This document shows positions 3,932 through 15,988 of a stretch of DNA of 64,000 bases, piece by piece; within the stretch, counting starts at the first letter, position 1; every line of letters begins with the position of its first letter. The DNA is taken from positions 1-64,000 of the forward strand of contig NZ_LQPT01000104.1 of the NCBI RefSeq assembly GCF_002102355.1, written 5' to 3'. The translations under genes and the position numbers were made by a program. The stretch comes from Mycobacterium sherrisii (GTDB lineage: Bacteria; Actinomycetota; Actinomycetes; Mycobacteriales; Mycobacteriaceae). The notes under the pieces are model-generated. The model worked only from the letters and a program-made list of their open reading frames with translations, searched no databases and had not been told where the DNA came from.

Positions 3932-3988
3932 GGGGCCTTAGCTCAGTTGGTAGAGCACCGCCTTTGCAAGGCGGGTGTCAGGGGTTCG
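3932..3988 (+). pseudogene. alaT: Disrupted resident tRNA-Ala (TGC), 5' part only
   Basis: The first 57 nt of a normal tRNA-Ala are intact: acceptor 5' strand GGGGCCT, D-arm, anticodon arm CCGCC-TTTGCAA-GGCGG with anticodon TGC, and T-stem 5' strand AGGGG followed by TTCG. After 3988 the sequence changes to CGCCTTATCTGG, which supplies neither the T-stem 3' strand CCCCT nor the acceptor 3' strand AGGCTCC, so no cloverleaf can form. The exact missing part (ATTCCCCTAGGCTCCA) is found at 15204-15219. Joining 3988 to 15204 rebuilds a perfect tRNA-Ala, so this is the left junction of the integrated island. Confidence 0.9.
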
Positions 3989-4041
3989 CGCCTTATCTGG
4001 AGGAGAGGGAGAGAGAGTAGGGCCTGACCTGCAGCTATGCT

Positions 4042-4061
4042 GTCGTGGTCATGTCCACGAC
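4042..4061. repeat. Inverted repeat abutting the island tRNA-Ala
   Basis: GTCGTGG-TCATGT-CCACGAC forms a perfect 7-bp stem with a 6-nt loop. It ends one base before the first base of the tRNA at 4062. It could be a leader hairpin, a processing signal or part of an element end; the sequence does not decide. A TATGCT hexamer at 4036-4041 could be a -10 element, but no convincing -35 is visible. Confidence 0.55.
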
Positions 4062-4132
4062 GGGGTCATAGTTCAACGGTAGAACGGGGCCTTTGCAAGG
4101 CTCAGATCGGGGTTCGATTCCCCGTGACTCCA
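4062..4132 (+). tRNA. Island-borne complete tRNA-Ala (TGC anticodon)
   Basis: A 71-nt cloverleaf. The acceptor stem GGGGTCA pairs with TGACTCC and contains the G3-U70 wobble, the main alanine identity element. The D-arm is GTTC-AACGGTA-GAAC, the anticodon arm GGGCC-TTTGCAA-GGCTC has anticodon TGC, and the T-arm is CGGGG-TTCGATT-CCCCG. The discriminator is A4132 and CCA is not encoded. It differs from the resident alaT in nearly all stems and has a shorter D-loop, so it is not a duplication of it. It probably supplies the tRNA-Ala(UGC) function lost by the insertion. Confidence 0.93.
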
Positions 4133-4190
4133 CTCGTTTGGGAACGCAGAGGCTCGGGGCCATCGGAGGCGACTGGCTTCCAGGGGTCGC

Positions 4191-4793
4191 TTAGCCGTCG
4201 GCATCTGATCCCTCGCCACCAGGCTCAAGTGGTATCTGCCCTGCGCTCCGATGGCTGGTTGTACGCCGCGGAGTGCGCCGGCTTTCTTGACGTAGGCGCG
4301 TTGGTAGTTCTGTCTCGACGGAGCTAGCGACGCGCAGCACATTGGGAAGCATTGCGCGGAGCGCAGTTTGACCGGTCAGAGGATCGAACAGTGTTCCGCT
4401 GAGGTTCGCAAAAATCCGGTCACCTTGCCGTTCGAGCTGGACATCCAGGAGCGGGTTCTCGATGCCCTGTTCTCGCAGTGCCGTGCACGCTTTCGCAACG
4501 CAGTCGATACGGAGTCGGCGGCCAGGTTGGAGCGCCTCTGGTCCGCCGCAAAGTTCGATCACAACCTTGACTGCCGCGATATCCGTCAGCGTGTAGCGCG
4601 ACCAACCGGAGTTGAGCCCCGTTCCAGACTGCTCTCTCACCAAGCGAAACAGGCGCCGGAGCTGGTGGTAGTCGATGTCTTCAATGCCGAGGAGGTGTGC
4701 CACCTCGCGAGGGAAGAAGTAGCCGTCATTGTCGCGGTCTCGGAGGCGTTTTGCTGGTCGGCGTGGCTTGTGCTGCCGGAGTCGGTGCGGCAT
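4191..4793 (-). CDS. MerR-like DNA-binding regulator of the restriction operon
   Basis: A 200-aa protein with a MerR-like winged helix at about residues 22-85, containing YFFPREVAHLLGI and a second arginine-rich helix HQLRRLFRLVREQ. A mixed C-terminal region follows, and the last 40 residues are Arg/Ser/Thr-rich and probably disordered. It is transcribed divergently from the methyltransferase operon. The shared AT-rich intergenic region carries a perfect inverted repeat at 4859-4878, so it probably controls the operon and its own promoter. Restriction systems often have such controllers to let methylation build up first. The family match comes from the helix pattern only. The final segment over 4191-4340 has weak coding character and the true stop could mark a degraded tail. 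Confidence 0.6.
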   Translation of the reverse strand: MPHRLRQHKPRRPAKRLRDRDNDGYFFPREVAHLLGIEDIDYHQLRRLFRLVREQSGTGLNSGWSRYTLTDIAAVKVVIELCGGPEALQPGRRLRIDCVAKACTALREQGIENPLLDVQLERQGDRIFANLSGTLFDPLTGQTALRAMLPNVLRVASSVETELPTRLRQESRRTPRRTTSHRSAGQIPLEPGGEGSDADG

Positions 4794-4820
4794 CGGATCT
4801 TCCCATCGAAGATCCTAAAT

Positions 4821-4878
4821 TTACCGTTAGAACACTTACTAATGGTATATTCATCATCGAATTTCATCCATGAAATTC
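4821..4878 (+). promoter_or_regulatory. Putative promoter and operator of the methyltransferase operon
   Basis: This stretch is strikingly AT-rich for the genome. A possible -10 TATATT lies at 4846-4851, with a weak -35 (TTACCG, 4821-4826) at a 19-bp spacing. Just downstream is a perfect inverted repeat, GAATTTCAT-CC-ATGAAATTC, at 4859-4878, placed where transcription would begin. It could be the operator of the divergent regulator or a 5'-leader hairpin. A start near 4858 would leave no ribosome binding site for an ATG at 4870, which favours the methyltransferase start at 4978. Confidence 0.5.
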
Positions 4879-4977
4879 GCTGGTCAGGGGCACGATCCCA
4901 AGCTGGTCCGCAGGAGGTTCCCTGAATGCGTGAGTGGGTCGCCAGCGATGCTGGCATGTCGCCGCCCAAGGCTGGCC

Positions 4978-6213
4978 ATGCCGACGTTTCGTAGCATCGA
5001 TCTGTTTGCTGGTTGTGGTGGGCTCTCCCTCGGCCTGCACAAGGCTGGGTGGGATGGGGTGCTCGCCATGGAGCGCGACCCGATGGCGTTTGAGACGTTC
5101 TATACCAACCTGGTCGCGGATGGCAGCCCCTATCGCGCATACAGCAAATGGCCAGACTGGTTGCCAAAGCAGCCGTCGGACATTGTCGCCGCGCTAGCGG
5201 ACCGCACAGTTCGTGAGGGCCTAACGGCGCTGCGAGGTTCGATCCAGCTTGTGGCGGGCGGACCGCCGTGCCAAGGGTTCTCGGTCGGTGGGGCCCGCAA
5301 TGGGCGTGACGAACGAAACCAGTTGGTCCATCACCAACTTGACGTTATCGACATGGTCAGGCCGGACGTGGCACTCGTCGAGAATGTCGAGGGCATCACC
5401 CGCGCATTCCGGGCCCGCCCTGGAGCCGACGCCACCGAACCATCAGTCGCTGATCAAGTCGTAGAAGCACTGAGCCAGCTCGGTTACGCGGCAGACTACG
5501 GCGTCGTTGATGCGCGCAACTTCGCTGTGCCGCAAGCTCGCCGCCGAACAATCATCATCGGCATTCGTAATGACCTCGGGGTGGCACCAGGCGCGTTCTT
5601 TGATGCCCTTGCTGAATCGCCAGACGAGTTGTACACAATTCTGGGACTACCGAAACGCACCGTCACGGCCCGCGAAGCGATCGATGACCTTTCGAATCCC
5701 GGGGTGCGAGTCACGTGCCCAGACTCCGTGAAATTCGAATCCACCCGTTACCGCAAGGCAACGAGCTCCTACGCGCGGCTGATGAGGGTAGGCGCGAGAG
5801 CAGGCTCGATTCCCGACTCGCACCGATTCTCCGAGCACGGAGAACGCATCCAGGCGCTCTACGCGCTTGCGCATGCTACCCAGCCCAAGGGCCGCCTGCG
5901 TAAGGAGTTCCTCCTCGCCAACGGCACCAAGAAGGACAAGAAGGTCCTGATAGCCCCCGATACGCCGGTGTCAACAATCACCACGCACCCGGATGAGTTC
6001 ATCCACTATGCAGAGCCGCGGAACGTGACTGTGCGCGAGATGGCGCGTTTGCAGTCGTTTCCTGACAACTTCCACTTCAAGGGCCGATACACTATCAACG
6101 GCCCGCGCCGCAGGTTCGATGTCGCGCGTTGCTCGCAGGTCGGAAACGCGGTGCCACCGCATTTCGCACAGGCAATCGGGATGGCGATCAAGCAAGTACT
6201 CAATGGCAAGTGA
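4978..6213 (+). CDS. DNA (cytosine-5)-methyltransferase
   Basis: A 411-aa C5-cytosine methyltransferase. Counting from the chosen start, motif I is DLFAGCGGLSLG (residues 8-19), motif IV GGPPCQGFS has the catalytic Cys at 98, motif VI is ENVEG (135-139), motif VIII is QARRR (186-190), and motif X GNAVPPHFAQAIG is at the C-terminus. The target-recognition region between VIII and IX cannot be read for specificity. The frame is open from an ATG at 4870, but that ATG sits inside the inverted repeat, and family members begin just before motif I, so 4978 is preferred. It is the first gene of a five-gene operon with a nuclease and a Vsr protein, so it probably protects host DNA from the partner nuclease. 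Third-position GC is lower than in flanking housekeeping genes, in line with transfer. Confidence 0.92.
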   Translation: MPTFRSIDLFAGCGGLSLGLHKAGWDGVLAMERDPMAFETFYTNLVADGSPYRAYSKWPDWLPKQPSDIVAALADRTVREGLTALRGSIQLVAGGPPCQGFSVGGARNGRDERNQLVHHQLDVIDMVRPDVALVENVEGITRAFRARPGADATEPSVADQVVEALSQLGYAADYGVVDARNFAVPQARRRTIIIGIRNDLGVAPGAFFDALAESPDELYTILGLPKRTVTAREAIDDLSNPGVRVTCPDSVKFESTRYRKATSSYARLMRVGARAGSIPDSHRFSEHGERIQALYALAHATQPKGRLRKEFLLANGTKKDKKVLIAPDTPVSTITTHPDEFIHYAEPRNVTVREMARLQSFPDNFHFKGRYTINGPRRRFDVARCSQVGNAVPPHFAQAIGMAIKQVLNGK

Positions 6214-7027
6214 GACCACACAAACAGAGATGCCGGAGACGGCAGCAGCACCACTACTGGCCACGCTCAGCGAGTCTGGCCTGGACCAGATCGCAGCGTT
6301 CCTCTTAGCCGGGACCAAGGAAGAGGCTGACGACCTCGCGCCCACAGCGCTGCAGCTGCTTGCCGCGGAGTTTCCCGCGGGTGATTGGGGGATGGATCAC
6401 GACAGCAACTTGTTCGGCCACGGAGCGCTGCGCAATCTCTACGAGCGTGAGATACCGAGCGATTTCCGTGCCTGGCTGACTGCCCAGGGAATTGACGGTG
6501 ACCAGTACGCGGCGGCTATTCGGCCGATTCAATTCAACTTCATCAACATCTGGCCGGCCAAGCTCTTCCCGGCTGCCGCACGGGCGAATCGAGGTTGGCG
6601 CATTCGGTTCGTGGGCTTCCCCAACCTGAACACCATTGCTGCCGGACTCGCAAGTCACTACCAAGGCAACCAAAGTCAGAATGAAATCGGCAGGGCTTCG
6701 GCGCTAATCCACCACGCGGCGTTCCACGTTCTCAAGGGATCGCCGGAGCAACAACGGCTCGAAGCTTATCCAGCGGCTACCGTAGAGCACTGGGACGGGC
6801 GCGGCCTGATGCCACAGCCGATCCATCAGGTAGGAGGCCTCGACATTTCCTCCTTCCGTCCGGAGGGGGCTCAGCTTAAGGTCGCGCGCAACACGACTGT
6901 AAAGAAAGACCTTGCGAGCTTCTTCGCCGTCATCGGCCTGCCGCGGGAAACATTTGTCGCCGAGGGCAACCAGCACATCACCGCGCTACGTGCAATGGCA
7001 GCGGCCCTTGGCGAGGTCGAGTCGTGA
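6203..7027 (+). CDS. Unknown protein of the methyltransferase-McrB-like operon
   Basis: I do not recognise this 274-aa protein. It starts at ATG 6203, inside the last codons of the methyltransferase (11-nt overlap), and ends in a GTGA overlap with the ATPase gene, so the three are translationally coupled. There is no signal peptide or membrane segment. The N-terminal 60 residues look helical. The middle (about 75-170) is aromatic-rich, with FNFINIWPAK, RIRFVGFPNLN and a HHAAFHVLKG segment. The C-terminal 60 residues are mixed alpha/beta with several Lys/Arg. No nuclease or nucleotide-binding motif is visible. In this position it could be a DNA-recognition or assembly subunit, as in multi-gene McrBC-like restriction systems, but that is inference. 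Confidence 0.7.
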   Translation: MASETTQTEMPETAAAPLLATLSESGLDQIAAFLLAGTKEEADDLAPTALQLLAAEFPAGDWGMDHDSNLFGHGALRNLYEREIPSDFRAWLTAQGIDGDQYAAAIRPIQFNFINIWPAKLFPAAARANRGWRIRFVGFPNLNTIAAGLASHYQGNQSQNEIGRASALIHHAAFHVLKGSPEQQRLEAYPAATVEHWDGRGLMPQPIHQVGGLDISSFRPEGAQLKVARNTTVKKDLASFFAVIGLPRETFVAEGNQHITALRAMAAALGEVES

Positions 7028-8226
7028 ACTCGAATCCATTTGCCGATTTGCAGACCTTCGAGAGCATGCGAGCCGCCGCGTTCAGAGGTCAGGCCGAGTT
7101 CGACCGGTACTTCATGGCTCGAGCCACTGCGCAACGCCGCCTCAGGCAGCCCGCCGCGGTGCAGTTGTCTCCGCGCGTGGAACGCATGGTGCGACTTGCC
7201 ATCGCCACGTCCCGGGCTGTGCTGCTCGTCGGCCCTCCCGGCACCGGCAAGACCGAGATTCTCCGCCAGGTTATTGAGGAATTCGATCGCGAGCCGACGC
7301 GCTATGGATTCAGTATTGACCGCATCGTCGCGAGTTGGGTGACGCCGGAGGAAGAATGGGCTTTTGACACCCTAGTACTCGGCGAGACCATCGATGCCGG
7401 GGAAATCCAGAGCGTCGAAGGCTTCTTGTTGCAAGCGATCAGGAACGATTTTTGGCTCGTGCTCGACGAAGCCAACCGCGCTGACATGGACCGCGTCCTC
7501 GGCGGGGCGCTCACATGGCTGTCCGGTCAGCGGGTAAGGATCGGCACTTGGAAGGAGGCCGGCAGCGCGGCGCGACCGGCGTATCTCGAGTGGGGCGACG
7601 GCCCAAACTCGGCTGTTGCTGACGGCAGTGTGCCCCCGGAGCGGGAATACCGTACAGGGCTGGACTGGCGGTTGCTGGGGACCTACAACGCGGTCGATGC
7701 CCAGCGAGTGTTCAGGATGGGGCAAGCTCTCAGCCGACGATTCAAGCACGTGCCGATACCGCCGGCGTCACGCGAGGACTTCGGGAAGTTGATCTCAAGT
7801 TATGTCCAGGGTGAAGGCGGCCCACTCGAACTGGCTGGTCGAGTGACGGGACTGTATGCCGCGCACCTGGACGTTGTCGGTGCAGCACTCGGCCCAGGCA
7901 TGTTCATCGATATCCCCGCGTACGTGGAGCGCGGGCTGTGGATGGCGGAGTTGGAAGCATCCATTTCTGCGGGAGAAGCCGGGGCGGATTCTGCGGGAGA
8001 CTCCGGGACGGACTCTGACGATTCGGGCAGCCAACAAGCGGGAGTGCAGGCCGAGTTGCTGGAGGAGCTCTTGGCCGAGGCCTACATCGCGTCAGTCGGC
8101 AGCATCATCGCGAAGTTCGAGCCCGAACTGCTCGATGAACTTGGTGACCGGATGGTGGGCAGCAAGGCACTAGCGCCAGGCTCGTGGTCCTGGATTGTCG
8201 AGCACCTGGCGACGATGCGGGCCTAG
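7024..8226 (+). CDS. McrB/MoxR-type AAA+ ATPase
   Basis: A 400-aa AAA_5-type ATPase. Walker A is GPPGTGKT (residues 70-77), Walker B is WLVLDE (144-149) followed by NRADMDRVLGGAL, close to the McrB pattern DExNRA. Sensor 1 is the Asn of GTYNAVD (about 222), and a RRF arginine pair lies near 238-240. The C-terminal third has an acidic Ser/Gly/Asp linker (about 315-345) and then a helical bundle. McrB-family ATPases power translocation or nuclease activation in McrBC and LlaJI-like restriction systems; whether this one uses GTP or ATP cannot be read. The GTG start at 7024 overlaps the preceding stop, and the nuclease gene begins 1 nt after its own stop. Confidence 0.88.
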   Translation: MNSNPFADLQTFESMRAAAFRGQAEFDRYFMARATAQRRLRQPAAVQLSPRVERMVRLAIATSRAVLLVGPPGTGKTEILRQVIEEFDREPTRYGFSIDRIVASWVTPEEEWAFDTLVLGETIDAGEIQSVEGFLLQAIRNDFWLVLDEANRADMDRVLGGALTWLSGQRVRIGTWKEAGSAARPAYLEWGDGPNSAVADGSVPPEREYRTGLDWRLLGTYNAVDAQRVFRMGQALSRRFKHVPIPPASREDFGKLISSYVQGEGGPLELAGRVTGLYAAHLDVVGAALGPGMFIDIPAYVERGLWMAELEASISAGEAGADSAGDSGTDSDDSGSQQAGVQAELLEELLAEAYIASVGSIIAKFEPELLDELGDRMVGSKALAPGSWSWIVEHLATMRA

Positions 8227-8227
8227 C

Positions 8228-9460
8228 ATGACTGCGCTCGCCGTACCGGAGGCTGGATTGGACCGCATCCTGGCCGACTGGGCGGGCATCGGTAGCCTCT
8301 TTCAAGCCCTCGCGGCCCTCGGCGATCCCATCGAAAGGCGTTGGACGCCACGAGATATCGAAAGGCGCGCGATGCGCATCCTCTTGCTTGAGTGCGCTCC
8401 GCTGCTATCGAGATGGCCTCAGTCAGAACGCGCATGGCAGGATCAGCTGCCTATCCTAAGTACCCGACAGCGGTACTGGTCCCCTCGCCCGGAGCCGCGC
8501 ATCGATTGGAAGCGCACGAGAACCGACAGTTGGCCGCCGAGGCGATTCTCCATCAAGCGTCGCCACCGGGCATCCGACCAGATGCCGCTAGAAGTCTTGG
8601 GCTGGACTATGTCAGCATTGCACGATGCCGTTGAGGAAGCACGCCAGCTGCTCACGCCGAACGCGCCCCTTACCGAGCTCGTAGGCACCGCGGGGGCCGA
8701 AAGGTTCCAGGCCGCAATGCCGCTCGCGGAGTTCATTCAAGGCGAATCCGCCAACATTCCCGGACGAGACGAACTCGCCGCAGTTCGCGGGATGGGCTGG
8801 CCATGGAACGTTGTCGCAGACACCGCAACGGTGCTGGCATCCATCCATCGCCGTGATGGAGTTTCGCAGTTGGCTCGCCGGTTACTGCGGCCAGATGGGT
8901 TCCCAGACAGGTTGTTTCAGCTCGCCGTGGTCGGCGCCGTCATCGCTGCCGCTGAATCAGCCGGCGGCAAAGTCACGAGCACGCGGCCAATCGGCCACAT
9001 GTCAGAGGGCCCCTCCTATGAAATCCGCGACACCCGCGGCGGGACCTGGGATCTCTGGTGCGAGGCAGAACGCTGCTGGCAGCGATACCAGGCCCACGAT
9101 CACCACCGCCAGCTGGCGGAATCGCTCACTCGCCTATCTGGAGACAAGTTCGCTGCCCGCCACCTCCGACCGGACATTCTCCTCACCCGGCCGTTCGATC
9201 GAGCACTCATCATCGAGTGTAAGTTTCCTGCCGAGAGTGCAGACCCCGGCTACGTGGCCAGCGGCATGAGCCAGGCGTACTTCTATGCAATGCAATTGTC
9301 GACGCGATTCGCGCGCACGGAGGCCGTCGTGGTCGGCCCGTCCGAACTAGTACCCGTGCGAAGCAGCACCCAGGTGGGCGGGCTCAACCTCAGCTTGATG
9401 GCTGTACCGCCACTTGCTCAGAAGGTCGAGCGGCTAATGAGAGGCGACGATGATGCCTGA
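8228..9460 (+). CDS. PD-(D/E)XK nuclease subunit
   Basis: A 410-aa protein with a PD-(D/E)XK nuclease core near its C-terminus: RPDILLT with D316, then IIECKF with E330 and K332, then a helix SQAYFYAMQL that fits the usual post-core helix. The N-terminal 300 residues are mostly helical, with no motif I can name. This architecture (long helical N-terminus, C-terminal nuclease, gene right after a McrB-like ATPase) resembles the McrC or LlaJI R2 role, so I infer it is the DNA-cutting subunit working with the ATPase. ATG 8228 is 1 nt after the ATPase stop. Its 3' end overlaps the vsr gene by 11 nt. Sequence identity with McrC is not evident by eye. Confidence 0.8.
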   Translation: MTALAVPEAGLDRILADWAGIGSLFQALAALGDPIERRWTPRDIERRAMRILLLECAPLLSRWPQSERAWQDQLPILSTRQRYWSPRPEPRIDWKRTRTDSWPPRRFSIKRRHRASDQMPLEVLGWTMSALHDAVEEARQLLTPNAPLTELVGTAGAERFQAAMPLAEFIQGESANIPGRDELAAVRGMGWPWNVVADTATVLASIHRRDGVSQLARRLLRPDGFPDRLFQLAVVGAVIAAAESAGGKVTSTRPIGHMSEGPSYEIRDTRGGTWDLWCEAERCWQRYQAHDHHRQLAESLTRLSGDKFAARHLRPDILLTRPFDRALIIECKFPAESADPGYVASGMSQAYFYAMQLSTRFARTEAVVVGPSELVPVRSSTQVGGLNLSLMAVPPLAQKVERLMRGDDDA

Positions 9461-9896
9461 GGCTGCGCCGGCATATCCAAGGGCGTCGTCTTTGGCTCGT
9501 AGCGCATCAATGAAAGGGAGCAAACGGGCGGACACGATGCCTGAAAGGCGGCTCAGGTCGTTACTCCATCAACGTGGCCTACGCTTCCGCAAGGACTTAC
9601 GGCTGGACCTTCCCGGCGGCAAGGTCCGCCCCGACGTCGTCTTCACTCGCGCGAAGATCGCGGTGTTCGTCGACGGATGCTTTTGGCACGCATGCCCCGA
9701 TCACTCCGCACCACCTCGGGTAAACCAGTGGTATTGGGGGCCAAAGCTCGACCGAACCCGCCAGCGAGACGCGCATAACGACGAGATCTTGGCGGCCGCG
9801 GGATGGATCAGCATCCGCGTCTGGGAGCACGAGCCTCCGGAGCTAGTCGCGTCGCGCGTCGAGGCCACATACCGAGCTCGCGCCTCAACGGATTGA
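9450..9896 (+). CDS. vsr: Very-short-patch (Vsr-type) mismatch endonuclease
   Basis: A 148-aa Vsr-family nuclease. It shows TMPERRLRSLL in the first helix, then RPDVVF with the metal-binding D62, and VDGCFWHACPDH with H80 and nearby C77, C82 and H85, then the family C-terminal segment with NDEILAAAGW. Vsr nicks next to T-G mismatches made when 5-methylcytosine deaminates, so it limits mutation at sites methylated by the operon's C5-methyltransferase. That supports true cytosine-5 methylation by the first gene. Two ATGs (9450, 9453) lie within the end of the nuclease gene. The first 25 residues precede the conserved core, so a later start is possible. Confidence 0.93.
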   Translation: MMPEAAPAYPRASSLARSASMKGSKRADTMPERRLRSLLHQRGLRFRKDLRLDLPGGKVRPDVVFTRAKIAVFVDGCFWHACPDHSAPPRVNQWYWGPKLDRTRQRDAHNDEILAAAGWISIRVWEHEPPELVASRVEATYRARASTD

Positions 9897-9958
9897 CAAT
9901 ACGCCGGGGAGTGGCCGGACGAGCCGCTACTGCCGCACCGAACACGTACGATCCCCGA

Positions 9959-10705
9959 ATGGAGCACATCGCGGAATTCGGCGACGAACGGCAGAAGGCC
10001 TGGTGCGTGCACTGCGGTGAATTGCTGGATTCTGGCAGCACGCGAGACCATATACCAACGCGCGCGTTCCTCGACAAGCCATATCCGGCGCATCTCCCGG
10101 TTGTGGAAGTGTGCCTGGCGTGCAACAAAGGATTATCCAAGGACGAGCAGTACTTCGTCGCGCTGCTTGGCTGCATTATGAGTGGGACAGCCGAAGTGGA
10201 CGATCAGCCGGACCGGAGGATCGCCCAGATGCTTGCGGAAAGCCCCGGACTTCGCGAGCGCATTGCGTCGGCGCGGCGCGTCAACCCCGCGCCATCCGGT
10301 CGCGCGCTCGTGTCTTGGGAATATGAGGCACCCCGGCTTGAGCGAGTGATCGTGAAGAATGCCCGCGGACATTTTCTTTTTGAATGCAACGAGCCGATGG
10401 CTTCTGAGCCGAAGCGCGTGTGGTTCGCCGCATTGGAGTCCCTGAGCGATGCCCAGCGACGCGAATTCGAAGGCGTCGCAGATCCGTTCACCGACCGGTT
10501 CGAACCCGACGCTCGCATCGTGCTGCCTGAGCTCGGGAGCCGCGCGATGACGCGAGTACTCACCGGTGCGGACACCGTCGCTGGCTGGATAGAGGTTCAA
10601 GACGGCGTGTACCGATACGCCGTCGAGCAGATTGGCGAGGCCACGAGGGTCCGTTCGGTGCTTCGGGAGCATATGGCAACGGAGGTCGTTTGGGAGGACA
10701 GGTAA
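9959..10705 (+). CDS. HNH-type nuclease domain protein
   Basis: A 248-aa protein beginning with a zinc-stabilised HNH-like module: CVHCG at about residues 17-21, RDHIPTRAF containing the HNH-type Asp-His, and CLACNKGLSKDE with the second Cys pair and the Asn. The remaining 180 residues are mixed alpha/beta and unrecognised. It lies 62 bp after vsr on the same strand and could be a loosely attached operon member or a separate defence gene. ATG 9959 is chosen because the HNH module starts soon after it and the upstream in-frame sequence overlaps vsr. Substrate and partners are unknown. Confidence 0.75.
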   Translation: MEHIAEFGDERQKAWCVHCGELLDSGSTRDHIPTRAFLDKPYPAHLPVVEVCLACNKGLSKDEQYFVALLGCIMSGTAEVDDQPDRRIAQMLAESPGLRERIASARRVNPAPSGRALVSWEYEAPRLERVIVKNARGHFLFECNEPMASEPKRVWFAALESLSDAQRREFEGVADPFTDRFEPDARIVLPELGSRAMTRVLTGADTVAGWIEVQDGVYRYAVEQIGEATRVRSVLREHMATEVVWEDR

Positions 10706-10794
10706 CGGATTTGGGTCCAGAACGGTGCCACATCTCCGCGAGCAGGAACAACCCGCGAAACAGTGACCGAGCTGGCGTGACGCTGGCACGGGCC

Positions 10795-11121
10795 CTATGT
10801 GCGCGGGCTGATTAGCGCGCTTCGCAGCGTTTCGTTCTCGGCGCGCAGCTCGGCGACCTCAGCCGTGAGGGCAGCGCAGCGGTCCATCGCGATGCGCAGC
10901 TTGGTGCGCAGCGAATCCGCCGACGCCTTCTCGGGGGCGGGCCGGGGCGCGCGTCGTGAATGGCCGCGACGGCGCGCGATCTCTTCACGAAGCTTGGGGT
11001 GCTGGTAAAGAAAGCTCGTGGAGACGCGCCCGGTCCGCGCAACGCTGACGAAAGATACTGGCTGGCCGGCGAGTTCGACGTTGTCCCATCTGTCGAACCT
11101 GTCGTGCTGGCCCGCCACCAT
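10795..11121 (-). CDS. DUF6262-like accessory protein of a transposon recombinase
   Basis: A 108-aa protein. An N-terminal helix-turn-helix-like segment (SFVSVARTGRVSTSFLYQHP) is followed by a basic linker and a C-terminal coiled coil (about residues 70-105, heptads with LTAEVAELRAENETLRS). This is the layout of TnpC/DUF6262 proteins found beside Tn554-type tyrosine recombinases, where they assist transposition. The ATG at 11121 overlaps the recombinase stop (ATGA), so the two are co-translated. Position and architecture support the call better than any single motif. Confidence 0.75.
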   Translation of the reverse strand: MVAGQHDRFDRWDNVELAGQPVSFVSVARTGRVSTSFLYQHPKLREEIARRRGHSRRAPRPAPEKASADSLRTKLRIAMDRCAALTAEVAELRAENETLRSALISPRT

Positions 11122-12266
11122 CAGCGAGACGCATTCTCTGCGGGACGCCAGACTAGGTGTTCGGTGGCGCGGAGCCGGTCCCCGAGGTGATCGGCGGCCA
11201 AATGAATGTAGACATCGGCGCTGCTGGCGTGGGATTGGCCCAGCCGCGCGGCGATCTCCGGCGCTGTCCAGCCCGCGCGTGCGAGCGCCGTAGCGTGGGT
11301 ATGCCGAAGAACGTGGGGATGCAGGTCGTCGATGCCGGCAGCAGAACCGAGGCGAGCCACCAACTGGTGGGCGTTGCTATACGACAAGGGTTTTCCAACG
11401 GGTTGGCGGGAGAGGTTGACGAACACGTAGTCGGTGTCGAGCTCACGCAGTTCGCCTAGCAGATAGTGCGCGTAGAGGTCGAAGAACCGCTGCGGCGCGT
11501 CCACCGAGAATTCACGGCGCTGCTTGGACAGGACGCCATTCGCGTTGTCGGTGCGACGTCGCACCCGCACGAGGCGCCGCATCGGGTCGAGGTCCGCGTG
11601 GCGCAGCCCCAGCGCCTGACCGACGCGAAGGCCGACGTCGTAAAGGGCGGACAGTAACAACCGATCCCGAGCCGATGTGGCGACGTTTTGAAGCTTGGCG
11701 AAATCCGTCTCGAAATCGATAACCGACACCGTCTCTTCCGACGGTTTACCCCGGCGTGCCAGCCGTGACTGTTTCTGTGGGCGCTTCTTCTCTACGTGTG
11801 CCAAGAAGCTACGCGACGACTGTGGCGCACGAGCCGGGTTACGTGTGAGAACCAGCTCCTTCGGTCCGCGTCCCTCAATGCGATGGAACTCGTAGAACTC
11901 GCGCACCGCAGCGTTTACCGCCTTGACGGTCCCGGTAGAACGGGATCCCCCACCCCGCACGGGCAACGGTGGAAGACCGGCAGACAGCGCGCCGACGAAG
12001 TCGCAGAGGTTATCGAAAGTTACGCACTCCCATCCGATTCCGCGTGCGCGCAACCATCTGTAGAACAACGCCAAGTGCAGTGCGTAGGAGCGGACCGTAT
12101 TGCTGGACCGATCGACCGCGCGCAACCAGTTGAGAAACTGCTCCACTTCGAGGAGCGGTAGGCCGCGCTCATCAACGAGCGTCCACGACCGCGACCCGTG
12201 TACCGTCACGGGCCGCACGCGCGCTGTGAGCGTCACCCGGCGCGCGCCTGGAGATAAATCGGTCAT
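11121..12266 (-). CDS. Tyrosine recombinase / integrase of the island
   Basis: A 381-aa phage-integrase-family recombinase. Residues 38-130 form the N-terminal core-binding (SAM-like) domain. The catalytic domain holds R214 (DVGLRVGQALGL), a basic beta-hairpin region near K248, H318-x-x-R321 (HPHVLRHTHA), H346 (GQSH) and the nucleophile Y353 (VYIHL). The full R-K-HxxR-H-Y set is present, so it is probably active. It is the likely enzyme for island insertion and excision at tRNA-Ala. Together with the overlapping DUF6262 gene it resembles Tn554-like transposition modules more than classic phage integrases, which fits the very short shared sequence at the junctions. It is 56 bp downstream of the Rad50-like gene on the same strand. 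Confidence 0.92.
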   Translation of the reverse strand: MTDLSPGARRVTLTARVRPVTVHGSRSWTLVDERGLPLLEVEQFLNWLRAVDRSSNTVRSYALHLALFYRWLRARGIGWECVTFDNLCDFVGALSAGLPPLPVRGGGSRSTGTVKAVNAAVREFYEFHRIEGRGPKELVLTRNPARAPQSSRSFLAHVEKKRPQKQSRLARRGKPSEETVSVIDFETDFAKLQNVATSARDRLLLSALYDVGLRVGQALGLRHADLDPMRRLVRVRRRTDNANGVLSKQRREFSVDAPQRFFDLYAHYLLGELRELDTDYVFVNLSRQPVGKPLSYSNAHQLVARLGSAAGIDDLHPHVLRHTHATALARAGWTAPEIAARLGQSHASSADVYIHLAADHLGDRLRATEHLVWRPAENASR

Positions 12267-12322
12267 GACTGAAACGTAGAGACGACCACCGACACCTTGG
12301 GGAGCGGCGTCGGCGGGCCGAC

Positions 12323-14896
12323 TTACCGCACGAGGCCGCCGGGCCAGTGTCTATGGTGATCCTTCGAGATCTTAAGGAGATTGCCGCGCACCACTTTAAG
12401 GTCGGTGGTGGAAGGGACGTCGTCGTCGTGGCTGCCCGGATTGAGTACCTTGGGGAAGGTCTTCCATTGGCCCTTCTCCGCATTGCCATCGACGACAAAC
12501 GGGAACACCAGCGGAATCAGATCGCCGAGCGTGGATGCTTTCGCCTCGACGTCATCGATTGTGGTCGGCGTCCCGGAATCGGTGAGGCCTGTGGCCACGA
12601 TTTGCTTGGCGAGCCGCTCAGCGGCCGACCGCATTGTGTTACATGCGGCTCGTCGGCCCTTCGCCGTAGGGGCATACAGGCTCTCTTCGGCCTCGAGCAT
12701 CAGCTGTCCGAAGACGTCCGAAGTCTGTGTCGGTTCAGTACCCGCGATGATGTCGATCAGATCCAGGTTGTACGCGATGTAGTCGCTTCCGCCATGGTTG
12801 GTCTGTGCCCACTCGGCAAGCTTGCTGTCGAACGTGGTCATGATGACCTGGGTGTCCGCGTTGAGCAACTGGCCCAGAGTGTTTTGAACGAAGGTGAGGC
12901 GATGGTCGGCGTCGCTGCCGGGTATGGGGTCGTCGAGCACGACGACCGGCGCGCCCAACAGTTCTGTGCGGGCCAGAAAGATTGACAGGCCCAAAGCGTT
13001 GAGCTGTGAGTCGCTGTAGACGCCGAGGGCTTCCCGCTCGACGGGCTCGCTGACGGGATCGGCGCGTAGCGCGGCGATGAGGTTAACGAACAGCGCGCCG
13101 CCGGCGCGACGTTTGATGCCGCCGAATCCGACAAGTTCCTCAGGTCGGATCGTGCCCCACCACTTGGTGATCGTGTCGCTCATCTGGGCGAAGCGCGCGT
13201 CTAACACCGTTCCAGCGGCTTCGCGCAACGCCTTCTCGGCAGCGTTGAGACGTTTGATCGTGCGCCGTCGCACCGCCTCTGCGACGACGTCGGTGACCAA
13301 GTCGGCGCGCCGTGAAAGCAATTCGGCGATCTCGCTGAGCCCACTGATAGTGATGCGGTCCCGCGCCGCGGCCTCGACTGCGATCCGCAGTGCCTCAGCG
13401 TGGCGGCTGTACTCCTCGGCGGTTGCTATGAGGTTCTGGGCAGCGGTGTTGATCTCGCGATAGTGAGCGTCTAGTCCGCTCGGCACGGCCTGGCGGCTGG
13501 CGACAGCGTCGCCGGCCTGTTCGACGCCGCGGCGCGCGAGGGTGATCGCCGAAGTGAGGCTGCTGGCGGTCGCTGCGACACGGCTGGCTTGAGCTCGCGC
13601 GTTGGTGACAAGGATGGTCTCGACGCGGAGGTCACGGAGAGCGTCGGTGGCCCGAACCAGTTGATCGTCGGTCCAATTGGCGGCAGGGGGCACGGTTTGG
13701 GCTGCGGCAGTTGCGAACTGGTCGAGGCTGTGGCGTGCGTCGTTCAAGGTGCGGGTGACGGCTCTAGCCGCGTCACCGAGGACCTCGGTGCGGCGCACAT
13801 GGTCGCGCAGCAGGGCGACCCGTTCGGGCGTCAGTGCGTCGTCGGTGCCGCAGACGGGGCACTGCGTCGGATGCTCGAGCGTCGCGTACTCATCGACGCC
13901 GAGCACGGCTTCCAGCACGGGTGTGAGTCGGGCCGCGTGCTGGTCGGATTCGGCCAGGGCCCGGCCGTAGGCGACGAGGTCGGGAGTGGTCGCAGTGGCA
14001 GCGGGTGGTGTCCCGGTTGTGAACGCCGAGAGTGGGAATGCTTGTTCGCGTTGGGCGTTCAGGGCGGCGGTGATTGCGGTGTGGAGGTCGTCGACCGTGT
14101 CAAAGGTAGGGGTTGCGCCGTCGCCGTCGCGGTCGGCGAGGATCGCCGCGCCGGCCTCGAGCAACGCCTCGTCGACCGCCGTGCGGACGGCGTCTGCACC
14201 GAGGGGCTTCTTCGTGAGTGCAGTGATCGCTACGCCGGCCGAGGTGGCGGGCGTAGCAGAAAGCGCCTCCACCAGCTTCAGCGCGGCGCCTGGCTGCTCG
14301 GACTCCACGCGTCCACGCGCTGCTCTGACCCGCTCACGAAATTGGTCGAGGTCGGTTAGCGACAACAAGGCTTTGAAATAGCCGACGCGTTGCTTGGGCT
14401 CGGTGGACAGCACGTGGCGCAAGGTGTGTTGCAGAAGCACGGGCGCGCGCACCGGCGGATCAGCTAGGGTCAGGCCGACCTGCTCGAGATCGGTGACCTC
14501 GACGCCGTCGAGCAGCAGACGGCTCTCGCATTCGGTGCCTTGTCCGAAGTCGCACAGCAGTTCACGGCGGATTTGGTGGGCGACGCCGTCGTGGCCGCGC
14601 AGCACCGCTTCGACGTAGACATCAGTATCTGTCGGCGGTAAGTGCGCGTTGCGCAGGCTGTCGTTGTACTCGGCCTTGGCGCCGCCGAGCAGATCCCGGC
14701 GGCTGCTGCGGCCGCTGAGTAGGAACTCGATCCCCTCCGCGAGACTGGTCTTACCCTGACTGTTCCCAGCGTGCACCACAACCAGCGGCGCGTCGAGTTG
14801 GAGGACACGCGCTTCGTTACCGAACGCTCGGAAGCCGCGGATTTCCAACGACATCAACCGCGGACGGTTCACAGTGGTCACGACGACTGCCGCCAT
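12323..14896 (-). CDS. Rad50/SMC-like ATPase with zinc hook
   Basis: An 857-aa ABC-type ATPase of the AAA_15/Rad50 kind. Walker A is GNSQGKTS (residues 44-51). Long helical arms flank a zinc-hook CPVCG (C346, C349). A signature-like YSDSQLNALGLSIFLAR precedes Walker B VVVLDDP at about 650-656. The last 130 residues, after the head, form a helical domain with LNPGSHDDD and a trailing basic HHRHW. Relatives occur in defence islands (RloC-like, Lamassu and ABC-three-component ATPases), but I cannot assign it to one. The C-terminal domain could be an effector. An alternative start at M15 (14854) lies just before the conserved SLEIRGFRAFG; 14896 is used because it overlaps the upstream gene. Confidence 0.82.
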   Translation of the reverse strand: MAAVVVTTVNRPRLMSLEIRGFRAFGNEARVLQLDAPLVVVHAGNSQGKTSLAEGIEFLLSGRSSRRDLLGGAKAEYNDSLRNAHLPPTDTDVYVEAVLRGHDGVAHQIRRELLCDFGQGTECESRLLLDGVEVTDLEQVGLTLADPPVRAPVLLQHTLRHVLSTEPKQRVGYFKALLSLTDLDQFRERVRAARGRVESEQPGAALKLVEALSATPATSAGVAITALTKKPLGADAVRTAVDEALLEAGAAILADRDGDGATPTFDTVDDLHTAITAALNAQREQAFPLSAFTTGTPPAATATTPDLVAYGRALAESDQHAARLTPVLEAVLGVDEYATLEHPTQCPVCGTDDALTPERVALLRDHVRRTEVLGDAARAVTRTLNDARHSLDQFATAAAQTVPPAANWTDDQLVRATDALRDLRVETILVTNARAQASRVAATASSLTSAITLARRGVEQAGDAVASRQAVPSGLDAHYREINTAAQNLIATAEEYSRHAEALRIAVEAAARDRITISGLSEIAELLSRRADLVTDVVAEAVRRRTIKRLNAAEKALREAAGTVLDARFAQMSDTITKWWGTIRPEELVGFGGIKRRAGGALFVNLIAALRADPVSEPVEREALGVYSDSQLNALGLSIFLARTELLGAPVVVLDDPIPGSDADHRLTFVQNTLGQLLNADTQVIMTTFDSKLAEWAQTNHGGSDYIAYNLDLIDIIAGTEPTQTSDVFGQLMLEAEESLYAPTAKGRRAACNTMRSAAERLAKQIVATGLTDSGTPTTIDDVEAKASTLGDLIPLVFPFVVDGNAEKGQWKTFPKVLNPGSHDDDVPSTTDLKVVRGNLLKISKDHHRHWPGGLVR

Positions 14897-15180
14897 TTGG
14901 CGATAACGGCGTCGAGCGCTGTGTCGACGTCCTCTTCGCTCCCGGCCTGAGCGACGGCCTCAGCGAGCGCGCGGGCGTCGCGCTGTCCGGCGGCATCGCC
15001 GGATAGCTGCTTTAGCAGCGCATCGAGGTTAGGAAGCAGATCGCTCACCGGAGCGAGCGTACCGGTCACCACGTGAGATTCGACGCATGCTTTGGCACCC
15101 GTCAAAGAAGTCCTATAGATAACCCGAACGTGACGGCCGCGCTCGCAGATTGTCAGGCCCGTCGCGGACGTCGAACTCAT
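14878..15180 (-). CDS. Small partner protein of the Rad50-like ATPase
   Basis: A 100-aa protein of unknown function whose 3' end overlaps the ATPase start by 19 nt, so the two are co-translated. The N-terminal 45 residues look like a small beta domain (CERGRHVRVIYRTS). The C-terminal half is helical and Ala/Asp-rich, with a possible dimerisation helix. The ATG at 15180 is preferred over the ORF's upstream end because upstream of it lies the island right end with the tRNA 3' fragment at 15204. Two-gene small-protein plus SMC-like ATPase pairs are common in defence loci, but no family could be named. Confidence 0.65.
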   Translation of the reverse strand: MSSTSATGLTICERGRHVRVIYRTSLTGAKACVESHVVTGTLAPVSDLLPNLDALLKQLSGDAAGQRDARALAEAVAQAGSEEDVDTALDAVIAKWRQSS

Positions 15181-15203
15181 CGGTCGATCAGCTGCAGATA
15201 ACG

Positions 15204-15221
15204 ATTCCCCTAGGCTCCACA
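15204..15221 (+). repeat. Island right junction: missing 3' half of tRNA-Ala
   Basis: ATTCCCCTAGGCTCCA (15204-15219) is the exact T-loop end, T-stem 3' strand and acceptor 3' strand that the 5' fragment at 3932-3988 lacks. CCCCT pairs with AGGGG, and AGGCTCC pairs with GGGGCCT including G3-U70. The two ends share only CG at the exchange point (3987-3988 and 15202-15203). This fixes the island at about 3989-15203, 11.2 kb. Confidence 0.88.
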
Positions 15222-15974: not shown

Positions 15975-15988
15975 CCCTAGGCTCCACA
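15975..15988 (+). repeat. Second copy of the tRNA-Ala 3' end (older attachment site)
   Basis: CCCTAGGCTCCACA repeats 14 bp of the island right junction (15208-15221) in direct orientation, 767 bp further right. It is a 3' tRNA end without a tRNA body. Together with 15204-15221 it brackets a remnant segment, as expected if an earlier element had integrated at the same tRNA and later decayed. Host-like genes resume just beyond it. Confidence 0.75.

Follow-up and report, generated by a model that had tools for sequence, protein, structure and literature searches.

A five-gene operon on an integrative element of Mycobacterium sherrisii, predicted to encode an NTP-driven restriction–modification system with a separate sequence reader

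Introduction

Five tightly packed genes of Mycobacterium sherrisii raise the question of what they do together and which of their products would choose a DNA target. They occupy positions 4978–9896 of the 64,000-nucleotide (nt) stretch analysed here (contig NZ_LQPT01000104.1 of assembly GCF_002102355.1, positions 1 to 64,000; hereafter the window) and encode a C5-cytosine DNA methyltransferase (MTase), a protein of 274 amino acids (aa) that we call U274, a McrB-like AAA+ nucleoside triphosphatase (NTPase), a nuclease and the mismatch endonuclease Vsr. A preliminary description of this DNA took the operon for a restriction–modification (RM) system of the LlaJI/BsuMI type, driven by nucleoside triphosphates (NTP). 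The McrB-type NTPase with its NxxD motif, the family of the partner nuclease, the C5 MTase and a similar gene cassette in the Acidithiobacillus phage AcaML1 all support that reading; from sequence and analogy we consider it probable that the operon encodes an NTP-driven RM system of the LlaJI/BsuMI/PcaI kind whose sequence reader is a separate gene. Branches of McrB that are associated with DNA MTases are prevalent, and the census reporting them defers their treatment to a later publication (PMC11090510).

Results

The operon and its homology with a phage AcaML1 cassette

The five genes and the evidence for their assignment are as follows.

4978–6213, + strand: C5-cytosine DNA methyltransferase P0001 (411 aa); PF00145, TIGR00675, homology to Gp65 of AcaML1
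6203–7027, + strand: U274 (P0002, 274 aa), predicted DNA-reading (specificity) subunit; ATG start, homology to Gp66 of AcaML1
7024–8226, + strand: McrB-type AAA+ NTPase P0003 (400 aa); GTG start, AAA_5, profile alignment (hhalign) to the AcaML1 McrB
8228–9460, + strand: PD-(D/E)xK-type nuclease P0004 (410 aa) with D316-E330-x-K332; invariant residues, neighbouring AAA gene
9450–9896, + strand: Vsr mismatch endonuclease P0005 (148 aa); TIGR00632, PF03852, solved Vsr structure 1cw0

All five open reading frames (ORFs) are open and intact, and the earlier claim that they overlap or abut with at most 1 nt between them holds: there are overlaps of 11 nt between MTase and U274, 4 nt between U274 and the AAA gene and 11 nt between nuclease and Vsr, with a 1-nt gap between the AAA and nuclease genes. 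Each has a family match or homologues, so the five are more than chance ORFs.

P0001 matched PF00145 (2.2e-49) and, above its cut-off, TIGR00675; it carries what we take to be motifs I (position 8), IV (PPCQ, 96), VI (ENV, 135), VIII (186) and X (389). The operon contains only this one cognate C5 MTase gene, and a single MTase suggests a symmetric target. P0001 is 63% identical to AcaML1 Gp65 over 405 aligned positions, against 42% for both the next-best phage MTase and the best plasmid MTase. An IMG/VR contig (L057) also encodes an MTase 63% identical to P0001, but ends right there, and no U274 was found in that record. Matches to P0001 came from 23 plasmid records (31–42% identity), five of which were opened; two had no annotation in the stretch, and the three annotated loci all had other gene sets (two with hypothetical and large ATP-binding proteins, one with a DUF87 protein) and were not counted as related systems. 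At the other end of the operon, P0005 matched TIGR00632 (1.1e-35; 122.5 bits against a cut-off of 97.85), PF03852 and the solved Vsr structure 1cw0 (2.6e-12).

The only relative of U274 in all searches was AcaML1 (JX507079; three records of the same phage). Residues 33–269 of U274 match residues 6–236 of AcaML1 Gp66 ('McrB') with 30% identity (E=1e-22). The phage genes run in the order C5 MTase (Gp65), U274-like domain fused N-terminally to McrB (Gp66), canonical McrC (PF10117, 5e-41) and a Vsr-like ORF (L023 9288–9836); the last is unannotated in the record and matches PF03852 (2.6e-23), its first ~70 residues matching Vsr and the remainder not. The AAA parts of the window and of AcaML1 share 26% identity and were aligned by hhalign with a probability of 97.4. 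Because the AcaML1 homologue is fused to the front of McrB, U274 is predicted to be a reader: most likely it is the DNA-reading part of a McrB-like enzyme, encoded here by a separate gene. That U274 would correspond to the N-terminal module of McrB goes beyond the preliminary description. The would-be target-setting parts, MTase and U274, thus appear common to the window and AcaML1, with different engines.

Elsewhere U274 was not found: there was no relative in 60 related genomes, 397 genomes of the order and 296 of the class, in genome contigs (pattern scan), plasmids, viral contigs (searched twice) or six viral records, and a plasmid search with the U274-like domain of AcaML1 also gave none. 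Counting its own genome, U274 is thus present in 1/61, 1/397 and 1/296 genomes. Such confinement would suit a cassette that has decayed or fallen silent, leaving only the MTase (and Vsr) active as an orphan Dcm-like pair, and it leaves no conservation within the species by which selection could be judged. Against this, none of the five ORFs is broken, they overlap tightly, and MTase, AAA protein and nuclease keep the catalytic residues that were checked; we regard decay as very improbable.

The NTPase and nuclease pair

P0003 matched AAA_5 above its cut-off (1.6e-10) and has a Walker A motif at 70–77, Walker B at D148–E149, NxxD at N222-A-V-D225 and RRF at 238–240. NxxD is the signature motif of McrB (PMC11090510); it was present in 12 of the 12 AAA proteins compared, using a regular expression composed after the sequences had been inspected. 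The residues singled out in the preliminary description, K76 of the AAA protein and D316, E330 and K332 of the nuclease, proved invariant in alignments of six sequences each. Within the AAA gene, 24 nt are duplicated in tandem (7965–8012), in a stretch coding for an acidic linker rich in Ser, Asp and Gly.

No Pfam, NCBIfam, PADLOC or PHROG model matched P0004, and a search of solved structures returned nothing significant; a canonical McrC (PF10117) identity was rejected for lack of a Pfam McrBC match. Among 298 genomes of the order, four besides that of the window encode P0004 homologues (E=7e-39 to 3e-51). A search of 396 genomes of the phylum added one more, and 112 genomes of the family of G190 gave three, none of them new. 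The AAA gene adjoins the nuclease gene in the window and in the five other genomes whose loci were read (L007–L010 and L016). Scans of viral contigs with nuclease and AAA yielded no relative, only six short P-loop matches, and a genome-contig scan with the AAA alignment gave two short generic AAA matches, its patterns being too general. One genome (G322) carries two AAA genes of this family, the diverged one (L054 8349–10337, E=1.2e-36) lying about 13 kilobases (kb) from the other; a weak nuclease match alongside it (24.8 bits) was not recovered by the P0004-family profile among ORFs of at least 100 aa.

Plasmid matches to P0003 came from 25 records, and each of the five loci opened (H1, H5, H7, H15 and H19) has an ORF of 415–448 aa directly downstream of the AAA gene; the nuclease ORF of the Paenarthrobacter plasmid is annotated as shorter than its ORF in this range. 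The nucleases of L034 and L035 are 22% identical by BLAST (E=1e-11). Profiles of the genome and plasmid nuclease sets aligned over 330 columns with 98% probability, and the D, E and K residues are invariant in both. The nuclease of plasmid locus L037 gave sub-threshold matches to PF10117 (0.022) and PF09823 (0.053), the sole hint in the sequences that the nuclease family may descend from McrC. The NTPase and nuclease of the window belong to an unnamed engine family, other than that of AcaML1.

Readers and methyltransferases vary across relatives

The NTPase–nuclease pair recurs with other readers. In L007 and L010 an N-terminal domain is fused to the AAA protein; L016 has a different N-terminal domain and a convergent N4/N6 DNA methylase (PF01555, L016 9858–11210), judging by which the methylation chemistry may be exchangeable too. 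L008 and L009 encode two C5 MTases, a 129-aa ORF, an AAA protein with a short N-terminus, the nuclease and Vsr. Codon differences between L008 and L009 (15 synonymous, 7 non-synonymous) show that the 129-aa ORF is evolving as coding sequence does; by eye this ORF could be a homologue of the fused N-termini, a possibility that comparison did not support. Only 69–73 aa precede Walker A in the window, L008 and L009, in each of which an extra upstream ORF overlaps the AAA start, against 181–905 aa in eight others with a located P-loop and about 240 aa in L016. Vsr accompanies C5 MTases in the window, L008, L009 and AcaML1, and neither Vsr nor a C5 MTase was matched in the stretches examined of L007, L010 and L016. 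The pair in L035 has a C5 MTase, an NgoFVII-type restriction endonuclease (REase) and Vsr upstream, which may be a separate system. In L010 a 391-aa ORF (6808–7983) divergent from the AAA–nuclease pair had no Pfam match; by eye it resembles a ScoMcrA-type HNH nuclease, which would depend on DNA modification.

These relatives bear on two other explanations. The first is that U274 is an assembly, regulatory or immunity subunit and that the site is read by the N-terminal 300 residues of the nuclease or by the short AAA N-terminus. It gains from the long conserved non-catalytic region of P0004 and from U274 itself, which has no recognised DNA-binding domain: the Pfam, NCBIfam, PADLOC and PHROG libraries gave, at the limits used, only a sub-threshold match to Histone_HNS (0.087), and a search of solved structures found nothing significant. 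Yet the U274-like domain of AcaML1 sits N-terminally, where McrB and R1.LlaJI carry their DNA readers (PMC1459862), and U274 travels with a close MTase while the engine differs. The nuclease family, moreover, is common to systems with different readers, so that the nuclease is unlikely to set the sequence. We consider this explanation unlikely.

The second is that a modification-dependent (type IV, McrBC-like) nuclease stands by chance beside an unrelated C5 MTase and Vsr. The engine family does include the L037 AAA protein, which carries MrcB_N (DUF3578), the methylcytosine reader of McrBC (E=6e-31), and in L007 and L010 the engine has no C5 MTase match, other MTase types not having been searched for throughout those stretches. 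But the pairing of MTase with U274 occurs both here and in the Acidithiobacillus phage, their genes overlap in the window, and an enzyme cutting the product of its own MTase would kill the host. Chance association is accordingly quite improbable, and a plain type IV McrBC was rejected, given the MTase in the operon and no MrcB_N/DUF3578 match in P0002 or P0003.

PADLOC returned no complete system, in keeping with the earlier failure to match the whole set to a named one. The MTase was best matched by MTase_II (2.5e-75), with DruM and DrmMII models too; Vsr was matched; the AAA protein had weak P-loop matches only (best mad8, 1e-5), and there was nothing for U274 or P0004. DISARM and Druantia were rejected, as the MTase alone resembles DrmMII/DruM and the other four proteins matched no DISARM or Druantia model at E up to 0.1. 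A literature search of titles and abstract openings, covering few subscription journals, found no description of the five-gene set.

The operon is carried by an element inserted in a tRNA-Ala gene

The 'mobile island' of the preliminary description could be confirmed and bounded by an empty site in a relative (G006) and by the reappearance of the tRNA 3' end.

3989–15203, no strand given: integrative element carrying the operon; empty site in G006, insertion within the host tRNA-Ala T-arm
11121–12266, − strand: tyrosine recombinase, likely element integrase; PF00589 (1.3e-25), phrog_1 integrase (5.8e-26)

In five of eight same-genus relatives (G001, G003, G004, G006 and G007) the match to the window breaks off at 3988, within the tRNA-Ala gene; G005 and G008 gave partial matches and the match of G002 runs across the junction. 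Synteny is back at about 16740 in G006 (L052), and its resumption was not seen in G007, where the contig ends, or in G001, which differs over the next 7 kb. The host tRNA 3' end reappears at 15204–15219, with a shared core of CG. Because relatives stop at 3988 and the tRNA 3' end reappears, the operon can be assigned to an element of 11.2 kb that encodes a tyrosine recombinase.

Insertion has broken the host tRNA-Ala(UGC) gene within the T-arm (tRNA sites at 3932–4133 and 15202–15219 of the window), and ARAGORN reports only the complete tRNA-Ala(TGC) of the element itself (4062–4133), which differs from that of the host and has a G3:U70 pair, read by eye. In the draft genome these two places alone match a tRNA-Ala(UGC) pattern spanning D-arm to anticodon, so that an essential tRNA may be provided by the element. 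The same break in the tRNA is seen in another species of the genus, G002, where a complete tRNA of this kind follows (L060 1120–1323; 85% over 204 bases). Over the 19.9 kb examined there, none of the 11 proteins of the window element had a match, and host synteny returns at about 7.4 kb. The left end of the element and its tRNA thus occur with different cargo. A second copy of the tRNA-Ala 3' end at 15975–15986, about 770 bp past the right junction, could be the trace of an older or tandem insertion.

Other genes of the element include an 857-aa RecF/SMC-like ATPase (PADLOC LmuB of Lamassu, 2.2e-13) and a small overlapping ORF upstream of it (12323–15203), which together may form another defence system. 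The ORF that follows Vsr (248 aa, 9959–10705) shows, by eye, HNH-like CxxC and DH residues; it had no match in Pfam, NCBIfam, PHROGs or PADLOC. Nor did the ORF at 4191–4793 (− strand), so that its earlier label of 'divergent regulator' is unproven.

Discussion

How would such a system work? By analogy with R1 and R2 of LlaJI and with PcaI, we infer DNA binding by U274 and cleavage driven by the AAA ring; NTP use, translocation, a target sequence and a role for Vsr are likewise predicted. The MTase would methylate cytosine within its recognition sequence across the host genome, and U274 would read the same sequence, unmethylated, on incoming DNA and recruit or load the McrB-like AAA+ ring (P0003). 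The ring would hydrolyse NTP, probably guanosine triphosphate (GTP) by analogy with McrB, and travel along the DNA with the nuclease P0004, which would cut it; Vsr would repair the T:G mismatches that arise from deaminated methylated cytosines. The system appears to be modular, its exchangeable parts having counterparts in other microbes and in a phage. More tentatively, U274 may represent a new family of sequence-reading modules that forms with the MTase a transferable specificity cassette, plugging into two engines: the canonical McrBC of AcaML1 and the unnamed nuclease family of the window. The reading module may serve either as a fused domain or free, like the S subunit of type I enzymes.

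Several observations weigh against the proposed RM function with a separate reader. U274 has one distinct relative (AcaML1) in everything searched, so that the fusion argument rests on one case, and no similarity to U274 or the fused N-termini could be detected in the 129-aa ORF of L008 and L009. The contrast between split and fused readers is not absolute, since upstream of the long AAA proteins of L037 and L038 lie hypothetical genes that do not overlap them. AAA_5 is a broad family, and among solved structures the AAA profile best matched Midasin (1.7e-27), the restriction-endonuclease GTPase subunit 6ut3 following at 1.6e-6. McrC/DUF2357 models matched none of six members of the P0004 family, and hhalign gave P0004 against the AcaML1 McrC a probability of 0.8%, the catalytic positions being aligned. 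The P0004-family profile finds two of the five plasmid nucleases (L034, 1.2e-14; L037, 7.8e-4); the other three were assigned by position, alignment at 20–23% identity and motif. Finally, the LlaJI subunits showed neither GTPase nor cleavage activity in vitro (PMC1459862), so that NTP-driven cutting is unproven even for LlaJI.

The locus adds a nuclease family that has no name and a reader candidate that stands as a gene of its own. With a related MTase and reader paired naturally with two engines, the separability of target choice and DNA destruction becomes testable.

Among known systems, LlaJI of the Lactococcus plasmid pNP40 resembles the window in its C5 MTase, McrB-like NTPase subunit, which in LlaJI also confers specificity, and PD-(D/E)xK nuclease; it restricts unmethylated DNA, R1 binds the target site in vitro and both R1 and R2 are needed for restriction in vivo (PMC1459862). 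It differs in having two MTases for an asymmetric site and a reader fused to R1 (585 aa), and the available text on LlaJI mentions no Vsr (PMC1459862). The operon is therefore not LlaJI in the strict sense, having one MTase and not two; two occur in the relatives L008 and L009. Relatives of McrBC have differing recognition domains, and LlaJI reads its unmodified site via a B3 domain (PMC12707154). BsuMI and LlaI share the split layout of the window, with AAA subunits of 343 and 337 aa, a likeness drawn from their published description only, and a restriction cassette of three ORFs, the AAA subunit being short, had thus been described before (PMC1459862). In PcaI, as in the window, one C5 MTase stands with an AAA protein and a nuclease, McrC-like in PcaI; the MTase methylates CCNGG, and the AAA protein and DUF2357 nuclease restrict DNA lacking CCNGG methylation (PMC8989522). 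Its REase, however, consists of two genes with, as described there, no separate reader gene, and its nuclease is annotated DUF2357 (PMC8989522). Type IV McrBC likewise pairs an NxxD AAA+ NTPase with a partner nuclease, but has no cognate MTase and reads methylcytosine via DUF3578/MrcB_N (PMC11090510, PMC8989522).

The AcaML1 cassette (Gp65–Gp67) matches the window in its 63% identical MTase, U274-like predicted reader, AAA protein, nuclease and Vsr-like ORF, all in the same order; it differs in that this reader is fused to McrB and the nuclease is a canonical McrC (PF10117) with no sequence likeness to P0004. The accessible part of a report on the AcaML1 host names the prophage and none of the cassette genes (PMC3826726). 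Three-ORF cassettes being already known from LlaI and BsuMI, what appears new here is the occurrence of a free-standing candidate reader, a Vsr and an unnamed nuclease family in a probable McrBC-like RM system.

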